Origin: Aerococcus tenax
GTDB lineage: Bacteria; Bacillota; Bacilli; Lactobacillales; Aerococcaceae
DNA: 64,000 nucleotides
Assembly (NCBI RefSeq): GCF_003286645.3
Contig: NZ_CP127382.2
Location: 930,001 to 994,000, forward strand
Direction of reading: 5' to 3'
Part shown: in pieces, positions 30,601-34,763 of the stretch
How the letters are laid out: each line of letters starts with the position of its first letter
Position numbering within the stretch: position 1 is the first letter of the stretch
Notes under the pieces: generated by a model
What the model was told of the DNA's origin: nothing
The model's database searches: none
The model's input: the letters and a program-made list of their open reading frames with translations, nothing else
Translations under genes and position numbers: made by a program

Positions 30601-31989
30601 GCCCACAACTATACCAAGGTTCTCTTTGGGGAGGACCACGTATATAAAGCCGGAACCATCTCTACTGTTGCTGATAAGACCGCTTTTGGCTATGTTTTAG
30701 GTTATGATCGAGACCATAATTTAAACTTAAGGCAAACCGAAAAAGATTTTCTCGCCAAAGGGGCTACCGGGGTAAAACGAACAACTGGACAACACCCGGG
30801 TGGGATTATTGTTATTCCAGAAAACATGGACGTTTATGATTTTACCCCGATCCAATACCCTGCCGATGAGCAAACAGCTGATTGGCGGACCACCCACTTT
30901 GATTTCCATTCCATTCATGACAATGTCTTGAAATTAGACTGCCTGGGTCACGATGATCCTACGGTTATCCGTAAGTTACAAGATCTTTCGGGAATTGAGC
31001 CGACAGATATCCCAATGGATGATCCCGAAGTCTATAAACTATTTAATGGAACCGACTCCCTTGGGGTGTCTCCAGATCAAATTTTTTCCAAAACCGGAAC
31101 CCTGGGTATTCCTGAATTTGGAACGCCTTTCGTTAGACAGATGCTAGAAGCTACTCATCCCAGCACTTTTGCTGAATTATTACAAATTTCAGGTCTATCT
31201 CATGGTACTGATGTTTGGCTGGGGAATGCCGAAACCTTGGTTAGTGAAAAGGGCATGGAATTAAAGGATGTTATTGGTTGTCGGGACGACATTATGATGG
31301 ATTTGATTCATATGGGAGTTCCTAAAAGCGATTCTTTCCAAATTATGGAAAAGGTAAGAAAGGGGAAAGGGCTGTCACCTGAACATCAAGCGATCATGAA
31401 AGAACATGAGGTACCAGAATGGTACATGGATTCCTGCGAAAAAATTAAGTATATGTTCCCTAAAGCCCATGCGGCTGCTTATGTGATTAATGCCTTGCGA
31501 GTAGCTTGGTTCAAAGTGCACCATCCTATCTGGTACTATTGTGCCTATCTCAGCGTCAGGGCTGAAGATTTTGATTTGAAAGCCATGGCAGGCGGTTTAG
31601 AATCGAACAAGGACCGTCTTAAAGAGATAAAGGCTAAGGGTAATGATGCCAGTGCCAAAGAAAAGGCCCTACAAATTGTGCTAGAATTAGTCAATGAAAT
31701 GTGGGAGCGTGGTTTGAAATTTAAGATGGTTGATTTAGAGAAATCAGACGCCAAAGACTTCGTTATCGAAGGAGATGATACCTTAATTGCGCCATTCCGT
31801 GCTGTTTCTGGACTAGGTGTCAGCGTGGCTCAACAAGTCGTTAAAGCCAGAGAAGAATCTCCTTTCTTATCAAAAGAAGATCTGAAGATCCGTGGTAAGG
31901 TCAGCCAATCAGTTATCGATCATTTAGATGAGTGCAATGCACTAAATGGCTTACCGGAAGAAAATCAATTATCTTTGTTTGACTTTTAG
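27676..31989 (+). CDS. polC: DNA polymerase III alpha subunit, Gram-positive PolC type
   Basis: The 1437-residue replicative polymerase has its 3'-5' exonuclease inside the PHP domain, the PolC arrangement. The order is an N-terminal domain, an OB region (about 225-330), PHP start LHLHTNMSALDA (about 338), and exonuclease motif I FDVETTGLS (about 421) through HHRAIYDA. The PHP remainder and palm follow. A four-Cys zinc site is CLNC...CPEC (about 910-940), and the catalytic acids are in VPDIDLNFSGEYQ (about 960). The C-terminus ends QLSLFDF, a likely beta-clamp binding motif. AGGGAG is the ribosome site. The length is normal for the family. Confidence 0.98.
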   Translation: MLSNEEMFQTLLRQMHWQSDDENIKQGSIEEVIVHQVSRCYQFNIRFPERLPFSAYQLFYAQLTNTFQAIAKVKLKVIISQVSTASDQEVSAYWPVILECLNLSDGMAQQVLYANPPKINQGKMFLYVENDPIREYVETNYVQAILDCYQRHGFDKLSLKVIVDQAKANERQEQYQSRRQALEKEEQEKAKLVQERSEQAPSNAKQVKSPDQIRIGRSIPSDQVQIMKSYTEEQRRAVMEGVVFDVEIRELRTGRCILVLKMSDYTSAFIVQKFSNSDADIAIFNSIKEGMWLRVRGDIQMDDRFARDLVVNARDLEAIEKEPRQDTMPEDQKRVELHLHTNMSALDATNSVTDFVKQAAAWGHKAIAVTDHGNVQAFPEASQAAKDTGVKLIYGMEAYVVDDGVPIAYNPGHVELENATYVIFDVETTGLSAVYNTIIEIGAVKMHKGNVVGEFSEFLNPGHHLSSFTTELTGITDSMVANARPEPEVMQDFLDFCQGTILVAHNASFDVGFIDAAYQRNGLPTIENPVIDTLELARYLYPHLKSFRLNTLSKHFNVSLEHHHRAIYDATSTGALAWIFVKEAKESHDMVYHDQLNRDIGQGDAYKKGRPFHATILAKNQKGLKDLFKLVSASNVDYFHRVPRIPRSLLKEHREHLLIGSACSEGEVFTAAMQKGKETAKKFAEFYDYLEIQPKASYEPLLRNQDIINNEALENIINDLVDIGDELGIPVVATGDAHYLNPEDKIYREILINSIKSNRSKYFPRAHFRTTKEMLDDFAFLGEEKAFELVVTNSNAIADSIEFVEPIHDKLYTPHIDGAEESIRNDAFTKAHEIYGENLPELIEERLERELDSIIGNGFAVIYYIAQKLVWKSNEDGYIVGSRGSVGSSFAATMLGITEVNPLPPHYVCLNCHYSHFYTHGEIGSGFDLEDKDCPECGQPLSKDGHDIPFETFLGFNGDKVPDIDLNFSGEYQAQAHNYTKVLFGEDHVYKAGTISTVADKTAFGYVLGYDRDHNLNLRQTEKDFLAKGATGVKRTTGQHPGGIIVIPENMDVYDFTPIQYPADEQTADWRTTHFDFHSIHDNVLKLDCLGHDDPTVIRKLQDLSGIEPTDIPMDDPEVYKLFNGTDSLGVSPDQIFSKTGTLGIPEFGTPFVRQMLEATHPSTFAELLQISGLSHGTDVWLGNAETLVSEKGMELKDVIGCRDDIMMDLIHMGVPKSDSFQIMEKVRKGKGLSPEHQAIMKEHEVPEWYMDSCEKIKYMFPKAHAAAYVINALRVAWFKVHHPIWYYCAYLSVRAEDFDLKAMAGGLESNKDRLKEIKAKGNDASAKEKALQIVLELVNEMWERGLKFKMVDLEKSDAKDFVIEGDDTLIAPFRAVSGLGVSVAQQVVKAREESPFLSKEDLKIRGKVSQSVIDHLDECNALNGLPEENQLSLFDF

Positions 31990-32012: not shown

Positions 32013-32051
32013 AAACAGGGCTGTCTAAAGGGGTAGCCCTGTTTATTTATT
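32013..32051 (+). terminator. Intrinsic terminator after polC
   Basis: AAACAGGGCT (32013-32022) and AGCCCTGTTT (32035-32044) form a perfect 10-bp stem; the tail is TATTTATT. Confidence 0.8.
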
Positions 32052-32188: not shown

Positions 32189-32503
32189 ATGATGCAAGAA
32201 ATGATTATTACCATTGTTGACCATAAATATGGTCGCGATGTGATCAAAACTGCCCGGGAAGCGGGAGCTGTCGGAGCTACTGTCGTTAAGGGACGTGGAG
32301 CGGGTTATAAAGATTATGAAGCCGCTTTTGATGTCACCATCGAAGAAGAAAAAGATATTGTCTTAATGGTGGTAGATAGTGAAAAGGTAAGTGCCATTTC
32401 CCAGGCTATTGTTGAAAAAATGAACCTAAGATCACCAAATTCAGGAATTACCTTTTCCCTACCTGTCAATAATACGACCGGTTTATTGCGTGAAATTGAA
32501 TAA
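32189..32503 (+). CDS. P-II family nitrogen-regulator-like protein, single domain
   Basis: The 104-residue protein fits one P-II fold. Strand 1 is EMIITIVDHKYGRDVIKTAREAGAVGATVVKGRG, followed by a short loop, DVTIEEEKDIVLMVVDSEKV, and a C-terminal GITFSLPVNNTTGL. The canonical GlnB T-loop with the uridylylated Tyr is not recognisable; the loop (AGYKDYEAAFD) is short. P-II proteins sense ATP/ADP and 2-oxoglutarate and often gate a membrane partner. The next gene is the DUF1538 membrane protein, the likely partner. I chose the ATG at 32189 because GAGAGGAG lies just upstream; the next codon is also ATG. Confidence 0.85.
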   Translation: MMQEMIITIVDHKYGRDVIKTAREAGAVGATVVKGRGAGYKDYEAAFDVTIEEEKDIVLMVVDSEKVSAISQAIVEKMNLRSPNSGITFSLPVNNTTGLLREIE

Positions 32504-32527
32504 AATCTGAAAGAAAGGAGAGCGTCT

Positions 32528-33988
32528 ATGGATGTTTTAATTGATAGTTTTAAAGAAACAGCTTACTCGGTATTACCTGTGGTGGCAATTGTATTAGTGC
32601 TATCATTTTTTGTGGTTGATGTGCCGGCTAATATGTTGCTCGCTTTTATTATCGGGGCGATTTTACTCATGTTAGGGCTGACGATTTTTCTAACTGGTAT
32701 TGATGTGGGGATGACCCCAATTGGAAATCACTTAGGTCACTATGTTGCCGGAAATAGCTCGGTTAAGGTCATTGCAGTAATCAGTTTTATTATTGGTTTT
32801 GCAGTGACTATCGCTGAGCCAGACTTATTGATACTGGGTCTGCAAATTCAAGAGGCGACTTCAGGTGCCTTGAGTCAGCAACTAGTCGTCTTATCAGTCT
32901 CTATTGGTGTGGGGATCATGATTGCATTTGGAGTATTTCGACTCTTGAAACGAATTGCTTTAAAGCATTTCTTTGCACTTGTTTACGGAATTATTTTAAT
33001 ACTAGCTATTTTTTCTGAAGATTCTAACATTGCTATGGGCTTTGACGCTTCTGGCGCGACTACAGGGGCATTAACCACTCCCTTTATTTTAGCCTTGTCA
33101 GGTTCCCTTGCCCAAAGGATGGGGGGAAAGGACGCTGAAGACAACGCCTTTGGTCTGGTTGGCGCCATGAGTACTGGGCCAATCTTAGCGACCCTTTTAC
33201 TGATTCTATTATCGCAAAGTAATATTCAACCAGCTGAATCGGTGGTTGAACCGACACAAAATGTGTTTTATGCGATTGTATCCAGTTTTCTGCCGACTCT
33301 AGTTGAATCGATTATTGCCCTTATCCCGATTGTTCTCTTATTTATCTATATGAACTGGAGACATTTCCAACTTGATAAAGAAGAATTGATGGATATTTTT
33401 AAAGGAATTATTTATACGGTGATTGGTTTAACTATTTTCCTAGTTGGTGTCCATGAAGGTTTCATGGATATGGGGAAATTCCTTGGCCAAGCCATGGCTG
33501 AAAGAGGAAATCTATGGTTAATTATTACTGGATTTATTCTTGGTTTAGTTGTTGTCCTCGCTGAGCCGGCTGTCCATGTCTTGGGAGACCAAGTTGAGGA
33601 TGTTACGGGTGGATATATTCCTAATAAAATCCTTATGATTGCACTCTCCATAGGGGTGGCTCTAGCAGTTGGTTTGTCCATGTTACGAATTTCCAGTGAC
33701 CAGTTAATGGTCTGGCATTTCCTCTTACCTGGTTTTGCCTTGGCCATCCTCTTGTCTTACCAAGTCCCTAATCTATTTACTGGGATCGCTTTTGACGCTG
33801 GTGGGGTAGCTTCTGGTCCGATGACAGCTACTTTTATTTTAGCCTTTGCCCAAGGAGCAGCTGACTATCTCCCCAATGCAAATGCATTAGATGCCTTTGG
33901 TGTGATTGCTTTTGTTGCTATGATTCCAGTGATCATGGTAGAATTACTCGGATTAATATTTAAGATTCAAACAAAGACAAGTGATTAA
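32528..33988 (+). CDS. DUF1538 domain membrane protein (two repeats), putative P-II-gated transporter
   Basis: The 486-residue, highly hydrophobic protein has 12 or more membrane segments in two homologous halves. Each half repeats GLTIFL-G, then a LG/GLG turn, then an AEP motif (TIAEPDLLILGLQIQEATSG in half 1, VLAEPAVHVLGDQVEDVTGG in half 2), and later FDA-G--TG/SG (about residues 175 and 420). This matches tandem DUF1538 (PF07556). The repeat plan is usual for secondary transporters, but no substrate is known. It is flanked on both sides by P-II-like genes with short gaps, suggesting a complex like AmtB-GlnK or SbtA-SbtB. GAAAGGAGAG precedes the ATG. Confidence 0.85.
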   Translation: MDVLIDSFKETAYSVLPVVAIVLVLSFFVVDVPANMLLAFIIGAILLMLGLTIFLTGIDVGMTPIGNHLGHYVAGNSSVKVIAVISFIIGFAVTIAEPDLLILGLQIQEATSGALSQQLVVLSVSIGVGIMIAFGVFRLLKRIALKHFFALVYGIILILAIFSEDSNIAMGFDASGATTGALTTPFILALSGSLAQRMGGKDAEDNAFGLVGAMSTGPILATLLLILLSQSNIQPAESVVEPTQNVFYAIVSSFLPTLVESIIALIPIVLLFIYMNWRHFQLDKEELMDIFKGIIYTVIGLTIFLVGVHEGFMDMGKFLGQAMAERGNLWLIITGFILGLVVVLAEPAVHVLGDQVEDVTGGYIPNKILMIALSIGVALAVGLSMLRISSDQLMVWHFLLPGFALAILLSYQVPNLFTGIAFDAGGVASGPMTATFILAFAQGAADYLPNANALDAFGVIAFVAMIPVIMVELLGLIFKIQTKTSD

Positions 33989-34020
33989 GTATAAGCGCTG
34001 ATGGAGAAAGGGGAATAAAA

Positions 34021-34680
34021 GTGAATAAAGAACCAGTTTTATTTTTAGCCATTGTTAAAGAAGGGATGGCTAGCCGTTTATTGAAGCGCGCCAAACAAGC
34101 TGGTGCATCAGGTGGAACGATTATTAGAGCCTACGGGACTGTTCAAAGCAACTTATTGCGGTCCTTGGGTTTACAAGGAACCGAACGTGAAATCTTTTTA
34201 ACCATTGTTCCAAAAGAAAAAGAAGCGGAAATCCATGCCCATTTAGAAGATGCCCTTAAATTAAAGAAAAAGGGGACAGGTGTCCTATTTTCTTTTGATG
34301 TATCTTCTTATTTAGGCAATCAAAACCATAGCTATTTCTTTAATGAGGCAGACCAAAAAAACAAAGACCAGCTCCTGGTAACCATAGTACAAAGGGATTT
34401 AGCTGATCAAGTGGTTGATGCTGCCCGTGACGAAGGGGCTAAGGGAGCAACGATTTTACATGGTCGTGGAAGTGGCGCCCATGAAAAATCCAGCATTTTT
34501 TCCATTCAAATTGAACCCGAAAAAGAAATTGTTTGGATGGTTCTTCCCGCCAATAAAATTAAACAAGTAACAGATAACATTTCAGAGACAATGAAAATTA
34601 CGGAGCCAGGCCATGGGCTAATTTTTTCCTTGCCGATCTCAAGTGTCAGTGGCTTGATTGCTCAGGGGAAAAAAGGCTAG
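34021..34680 (+). CDS. Tandem (fused) P-II-like protein
   Basis: The 219-residue protein holds two P-II-like repeats. The first (residues about 5-98) reads LFLAIVKEGMASRLLKRAKQAGASGGTII...FLTIVPKEKEAEI...GTGVLFSFDV. The second (about 119-215) reads LLVTIVQRDLADQVVDAARDEGAKGATILHGRG...IVWMVLPANKIKQV...GHGLIFSLPISSVSGL. The second repeat is closer to the single-domain protein at 32189 than the first is. The start is GTG at 34021, with GAAAGGGG upstream. It is the third gene of the cassette and a likely regulator of the DUF1538 protein; ligand binding is unproven. Confidence 0.82.
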   Translation: MNKEPVLFLAIVKEGMASRLLKRAKQAGASGGTIIRAYGTVQSNLLRSLGLQGTEREIFLTIVPKEKEAEIHAHLEDALKLKKKGTGVLFSFDVSSYLGNQNHSYFFNEADQKNKDQLLVTIVQRDLADQVVDAARDEGAKGATILHGRGSGAHEKSSIFSIQIEPEKEIVWMVLPANKIKQVTDNISETMKITEPGHGLIFSLPISSVSGLIAQGKKG

Positions 34681-34736: not shown

Positions 34737-34763
34737 GAGTGAGCGCTAGCGCTCACTCTTTTT
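34737..34763 (+). terminator. Perfect terminator-like hairpin in the rimP leader
   Basis: GAGTGAGCGC and GCGCTCACTC form a perfect 10-bp stem with a TA centre (34737-34758), followed by five T's. It lies between the promoter and rimP. It either ends read-through from the P-II cassette or acts as an attenuator for the nusA operon. Confidence 0.8.

Follow-up and report, generated by a model that had tools for sequence, protein, structure and literature searches.

We describe a cassette of three genes in a 64,000-nucleotide stretch of the Aerococcus tenax genome (contig NZ_CP127382.2, positions 930,001 to 994,000; hereafter, in its full length, the window), which encodes a single P-II domain protein, a membrane protein with two DUF1538 repeats and a protein in which two P-II domains are fused (Table 1). 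These are written below as P, D-D and P-P, where a hyphen marks a fusion. A preliminary description, made from the sequence alone, had read three tightly spaced genes of this content from the DNA, and this reading holds: coordinates and reading frames are right, the gaps are 24 bp (P to D-D) and 32 bp (D-D to P-P), terminator-like hairpins lie at both limits, and the P-II (PF00543, once in P and twice in P-P) and DUF1538 (PF07556, twice) matches are all above their cut-offs. The '12 or more hydrophobic segments' attributed to the membrane protein are consistent with its AlphaFold2 model, which has 19 helices of at least four residues.

Linkage of DUF1538 to P-II genes

Linkage was examined at 155 DUF1538 loci. 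Relatives contributed 32 of them, a genome collection 80, two phylum samples 20 and 16, and plasmids seven (seven of the nine matching records were opened). The collection loci are the best-scoring 80 of 571 confirmed matches and therefore lean towards window-like proteins, a bias that the phylum samples, drawn by genome, do not share. A P-II gene either is fused to DUF1538 or lies no more than 1 kb away from it in the same orientation at 153 of the 155 loci and at 139 of the 141 distinct loci left once 14 near-identical ones are removed; no P-II open reading frame was found elsewhere in the 155 locus stretches, and the two loci without P-II (L070 and L245) both reach a contig end. The preliminary description had staked its proposal on this linkage being conserved in other genomes, and in the samples it proves to be near universal. 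These counts rest on purpose-built P profiles, because the Pfam model is weak on derived P domains. The first profile took C-terminal parts of fused proteins as its seed and then incorporated matches found in the relatives, which raises a concern of circularity. The second contains nothing but 16 single P proteins (supplied by the window and by 14 loci, of which 12 belong to the 141) and gives the same total; L245 gains a P at its contig end, and L062, with both genes broken, drops out.

At 35 of the 141 loci DUF1538 and P-II are parts of one covalently fused protein, and these fusions score 41-98 bits with the singles-only profile. The layout D-D then P-P is commonest (65 loci), followed by P-P then D-D-P (32), D, D, P (7), D, D, P-P (5), P-P then D-D (4), D-D then a triple P-II (4) and D-D, P-P, P (3); other layouts occur once or twice each. 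The window's own order of P, D-D, P-P is found at three loci, all in Aerococcus or the window's genus, and the presence of a single and a double P-II at one membrane gene, at first thought unusual, is instead a recurring layout. A metagenome-assembled genome titled Candidatus Atribacteria (L107) has P-P-D-D-P in one 851-residue frame, and two alphaproteobacterial plasmids (Methylocystis, Chelativorans) each carry two DUF1538 genes and then one annotated P-II family nitrogen regulator. On the short stretches from two genomes (G149 and G122) no P adjoins DUF1538; another contig of G149 has P-P beside a DUF1538 fragment.

The association extends to whole genomes. DUF1538 is present in 31 of 60 relatives, and the P profile matches in all of those and in none of the other 29. 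In the first phylum sample a P match of at least 45 bits is present in 32 of 33 DUF1538 genomes versus one of 68 others (G115), the sole miss, G122, having a DUF1538 remnant with six stops; in the second, all 15 DUF1538 genomes have a match (14 of at least 45 bits, and G168 at 33.6) versus one of 85 others at 45 bits or more (G257), a threshold that for both samples was set after the scores were visible. Wide stretches served for 20 of the 33 DUF1538 genomes of the first sample, the rest being covered by short loci or, for G062, also as L082; G221, with DUF1538 at 21.5 bits, under the cut-off, and no P match, was classed as lacking DUF1538. Any P match at E 0.001 is found in 52 and 25 genomes of the two samples, 20 and 10 of them without DUF1538, and other than in G115 and G257 these DUF1538-less matches (19 and 9 genomes) all fall below 42 bits and look like ordinary GlnB-like P-II. 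Fisher tests of co-occurrence give tiny p values, which ignore shared descent. One phylum draw contains both a genome titled Anaerolineaceae (G062, L082) and one titled Firmicutes (G066), one title probably being wrong; the identification of the first sample as Chloroflexota was dropped because the phylum of G066 draws identical genomes.

Of the 15 genomes of the window's genus, three lack DUF1538 and also lack any PF00543 match; the other 12 have DUF1538, and in 10 of these all PF00543 matches sit at the cassette locus. The exceptions are G010 and G014, and G010 has, away from the cassette, the only high-scoring canonical P-II among the 15. This confinement makes it unlikely that the cassette P-II is a nitrogen regulator which also serves other targets. 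P-II proteins do commonly have several targets, and orphan P genes lie near a murI-like gene in three relatives (G019, G023, G026), though the cassette is also kept there; the P-II proteins might thus be co-expressed with DUF1538 and act on an enzyme or regulator elsewhere, the membrane protein merely recruiting them as AmtB sequesters GlnK. We consider this very unlikely in view of the co-occurrence among the relatives, the covalent fusions, the breakage of both genes together in G036 (L062) and the want of any P match in G122, which has only a DUF1538 remnant.

In the window the cassette is preceded by a polC-like gene (a 1437-residue open reading frame ending at 31,989) and followed by a rimP/nusA/infB-like series, the gene names being our own reading, and each of the three start codons has, read by eye, a Shine-Dalgarno-like stretch 5' of it. 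Terminator-like sites number six against a mean of 2.7 in shuffled sequence; promoter-like sites number eight against 7.5, and no promoter can therefore be placed. Riboswitch control of the cassette was considered and dropped: a scan of the whole window at Rfam gathering thresholds gave no match of any kind, and a scan of 25 related loci gave just transfer-messenger RNA (tmRNA), L21 leader, tRNA and SECIS matches, none tied to ions or cyclic di-AMP (c-di-AMP). In two of these 25 loci (L095:2049-2401 and L122:4821-5169) the tmRNA gene lies just upstream of a P-P, D-D-P cassette, a site that is perhaps an insertion hot spot. Of the named genomes among the tblastn matches, Aerococcus sp. HMSC062A02 is closest (L063; 74% identity over D-D residues 1-485), and the single P is 99% identical to that of the nearest genome, G001.

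Table 1. Features of the cassette, in window coordinates; codon positions of the candidate residues were computed from the reading frame
Feature	Position	Strand	Basis
Terminator-like hairpin 3' of the polC-like open reading frame, upstream limit	32013..32044	+	14 pairs, 6 G-C
Single P-II domain protein (P), 104 aa, ATG start	32189..32503	+	PF00543, E 1.1e-8, 35.8 bits (cut-off 25)
Tandem DUF1538 membrane protein (D-D), 486 aa, ATG start	32528..33988	+	PF07556 x2, E 2.2e-125, 416.4 bits (cut-off 22.6)
Codon E97, N-half, motif EP, candidate ion/proton residue	32816..32818	+	E in 100% of 127 aligned D-D
Codon D173, N-half, candidate ion/proton residue	33044..33046	+	D in 98% of 127 D-D
Codon E346, C-half, candidate ion/proton residue	33563..33565	+	E in 100% of 127 D-D
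Codon D423, C-half, candidate ion/proton residue	33794..33796	+	D in 100% of 127 D-D
Fused double P-II protein (P-P), 219 aa, GTG start	34021..34680	+	PF00543 x2, E 6.8e-15, 55.7 bits (cut-off 25)
Weak terminator-like hairpin, downstream limit	34737..34754	+	5 pairs counted

The DUF1538 membrane protein

The preliminary description regarded DUF1538 as having no established substrate, and here it has to be corrected. UmpAB, a DUF1538 pair of Halomonas zhaodongensis, is described in its report (PMC5484666) as a two-component antiporter from a salt-tolerance screen, a heterodimer which exchanges Na+(Li+, K+) for H+ with an optimum at pH 9.0. The window protein belongs to the same Pfam family and, like the pair, is built of two homologous parts: the AlphaFold2 model (m320d6518db9c; 16 sequences, predicted local distance difference test (pLDDT) score 86.5, predicted template modelling (pTM) score 0.86) comprises two similar halves. 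In all four complete split pairs the N-half is nearest to the first gene and the C-half to the second, with Chelativorans represented by its second gene alone, and identity between the halves and their split relatives is 26-43%. D-D differs from UmpAB in that the halves are fused into a single gene and that this gene is linked to P-II.

Basic residues are abundant at both termini of D-D and scarce in the linker joining the halves, a pattern which, together with the fusion of P-II to the C-terminus and in L107 also to the N-terminus, points to two cytoplasmic termini and inverted halves. D-D is probably the fused form of an UmpA/UmpB-like pair. The near-invariant Glu and Asp of each half (Table 1) are kept in all 12 aligned rows of split genes and window halves, and R138 and R387 are conserved in 97% and 95% of the 127 aligned D-D proteins.

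Two variant forms of DUF1538 were also seen. P0030, on a 2.06-Mb contig, is a 273-residue version of the window D-D which begins at residue 214 and differs in one residue; the gene may be broken in a closely related strain, or it may have been mis-called there. Two loci (L190 and L195) have one DUF1538 gene and then one P gene, no second DUF1538 gene being called in either stretch, and a homodimeric form of DUF1538 is possible there.

The P-II domains and their number

The first domain of P-P is of a divergent type and the second of a canonical-like type, for which the structure model (pTM 0.82) has the ferredoxin-like P-II fold. The best Foldseek match is GlnK1 (E 2.8e-6), the profile from the 16 single P proteins matches 34 P-II sequences in the PDB, and PF00543 supports the P-P part of L107 as well as the window proteins; some PDB matches spanning both domains of P-P are AcrB-type or coproheme-decarboxylase-type tandem folds. 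P0081, a DUF1538 homologue, is named 'nitrogen regulatory protein PII' in one source. The model suggests that the two domains of P-P are packed in a fixed arrangement, with a short helix in the first where the T-loop would be and low confidence in the T-loop region of the second (pLDDT 53), as expected of a flexible loop. The GRG.G motif, the EKE lysine and the glycine-rich B-loop positions are kept in most second domains and single proteins.

The number of P domains per locus varies. With the first profile 44 of the 141 loci have three, 78 two, 16 one, one (with two cassettes) four and two none; with the singles-only profile the figures are 46, 76, 16, one and two. Weak domains near threshold, mostly in the second phylum sample, account for the shift (L240 is a triple in one count and not in another), and some one-domain loci are truncated by a contig end. 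Three domains arise as 1+2, as two plus a fused one, or as three fused, and in four relatives 1+2 is completed in trans: G014 has a cassette with a single P and an orphan P-P elsewhere (L313:3656-4423), and G019 (L311), G026 (L314) and G023 (L315) have a cassette with P-P, the orphan single P adjoining the murI-like gene mentioned above. A CBS-domain gene (PF00571 was tested in L311 only), by our own reading only a DarB/CbpB-like c-di-AMP receptor, lies about 3 kb or less from each of these three orphans; in G012 (L312) broken remnants of a single P lie close to a mutS2-like gene.

A strict rule of three P domains, or of a 2+1 hetero-trimer, fails, as two domains are commoner than three and 15 of the 31 DUF1538 relatives (G012 included) hold just two intact P domains genome-wide. 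A mixed hetero-trimer of P and P-P is possible and is not required, since the commonest layout has a double P-II alone. In many lineages an asymmetric pseudo-trimer may nevertheless be built into a widespread P-II-gated alkali cation/proton antiporter, with T-loop-poor first domains and T-loop-bearing second, single or fused domains (as 1+2, a triple fusion, or P-P with D-D-P) present three per antiporter and sensing an adenine nucleotide, AMP or c-di-AMP; we offer this tentatively and judge it unlikely.

A proposed P-II-regulated antiporter

Taken together, we favour the reading, at a probability of roughly 0.6, that the cassette encodes a P-II-regulated monovalent cation/proton antiporter which works like GlnK-AmtB or SbtB-SbtA. 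D-D would exchange Na+, K+ or Li+ for H+, with the Glu (E97, E346) and Asp (D173, D423) of each half as candidate ion/proton sites. The single and double P-II domains would be a dedicated regulator seated at the cytoplasmic side of D-D, the flexible T-loops of the single P and of the second P-P domain would reach into the transporter, and transport would be switched by a small cytoplasmic ligand bound in the P-II clefts, an adenine nucleotide being the likeliest. The anatomy of the cassette, the near-exclusive linkage and co-occurrence, the natural fusions, the P-II fold and the conserved charged residues are observed, and antiport has been demonstrated by others for a relative, UmpAB; the cation specificity of the window member, direct contact, gating, ligand and stoichiometry are what we infer here. 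Of the P-II-gated transporter first proposed for this DNA, the dedicated pairing of P-II with a transporter stands, by virtue of the near-universal linkage, and the supposed lack of a known DUF1538 activity does not.

The conserved linkage of P-II and carrier genes is of the GlnK-AmtB and SbtB-SbtA type, and in GlnK-AmtB, as proposed here, a P-II protein controls an adjacent membrane carrier. For a physical complex with T-loops inserted in the carrier, the natural fusions give indirect support. The window carrier, however, is not an ammonium channel, and the canonical B-loop lysine is not conserved in window-type P. From SbtB-SbtA, a P-II-like protein with a Na+/bicarbonate symporter, the cassette differs in its carrier family and in its tandem P-II, which in relatives is sometimes fused to the carrier. 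At a single locus in G016 (L310:3170-7474) a P-II-like gene (PF00543, 29 bits, one tested) comes after each of two genes for PF00999 Na+/H+ exchangers; there too a P-II-like gene adjoins a cation/proton antiporter, twice in tandem, although that antiporter family is unrelated to DUF1538.

Several observations weigh against the P-II-regulated antiporter, and a first group concerns the regulator. In canonical P-II the B-loop lysine contacts the ATP phosphates. The canonical GDGK/R is here replaced by PG.GI (with I at aligned position 87 in 70% of the 31 singles and in 75% of the 124 second domains) and the B-loop glycine is mostly lost in the third domain of D-D-P fusions, so that canonical ATP binding is doubtful. 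PF00543 matched only four of 10 related DUF1538 proteins, none above the cut-off; of the triple-P proteins, that of L243, from the second phylum sample, matches no Pfam family and that of L057 reaches 26 bits (cut-off 25). The varying number of P domains per locus means that there is no fixed stoichiometry, and related P domains occur without a DUF1538 match in G257 (L308) and G115 (L309), the latter matching the first half of the profile only and no Pfam family. The domains might, then, be degenerate, forming a constitutive structural or assembly subunit that senses no ligand, as the divergent first domain with its helix in place of the T-loop and the loss of the B-loop consensus in the fused third domain would allow; the motifs retained by most second domains and singles, and a T-loop modelled as a flexible loop would be, make this quite unlikely. 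E. coli, the host in which UmpAB was expressed, has PII proteins of its own. UmpAB was active in this host without a co-cloned P-II gene (PMC5484666), and P-II need therefore not be essential for transport.

A second group concerns the carrier. The PDB gave no convincing structural match for the DUF1538 model, and D-D scores 167 bits against UmpA (NF041627, cut-off 490) and 144.1 bits against UmpB (NF041628, cut-off 500); at scores so far below the NCBIfam cut-offs it is a relative of UmpA and UmpB and not their equivalog. We found one characterised DUF1538 pair, the window halves are distant from their split relatives, and GlnK and SbtB control ammonium and bicarbonate carriers; the window branch could accordingly carry another substrate (an organic anion, bicarbonate, ammonium or an osmolyte) under P-II regulation, alkali cation antiport being peculiar to one distant pair. 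The Glu and Asp positions, kept in every aligned row and in 98-100% of the 127 D-D proteins, fit a single cation/proton mechanism, and we judge a different substrate unlikely.

The main text of PMC5484666 contains no match for P-II, PII or 'nitrogen regulatory', and no published link of P-II to DUF1538, UmpAB or PF07556 was seen in full-text searches of openly accessible journal papers. Across the samples a DUF1538 gene without a dedicated P-II partner is a rare exception, and the two are often fused. With a P-II-regulated antiporter, alkali cation/proton exchange would join the processes that P-II controls directly, and the 'P-II family nitrogen regulator' annotations that stand beside DUF1538, also in genomes without any other P-II, would gain a meaning. 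The cassette would offer a small two- or three-protein system for direct tests of P-II gating, fusion and asymmetry, and the pseudo-trimer antiporter, if it proves true, would couple Na+, K+ and pH balance to the energy or osmotic state of the cell.
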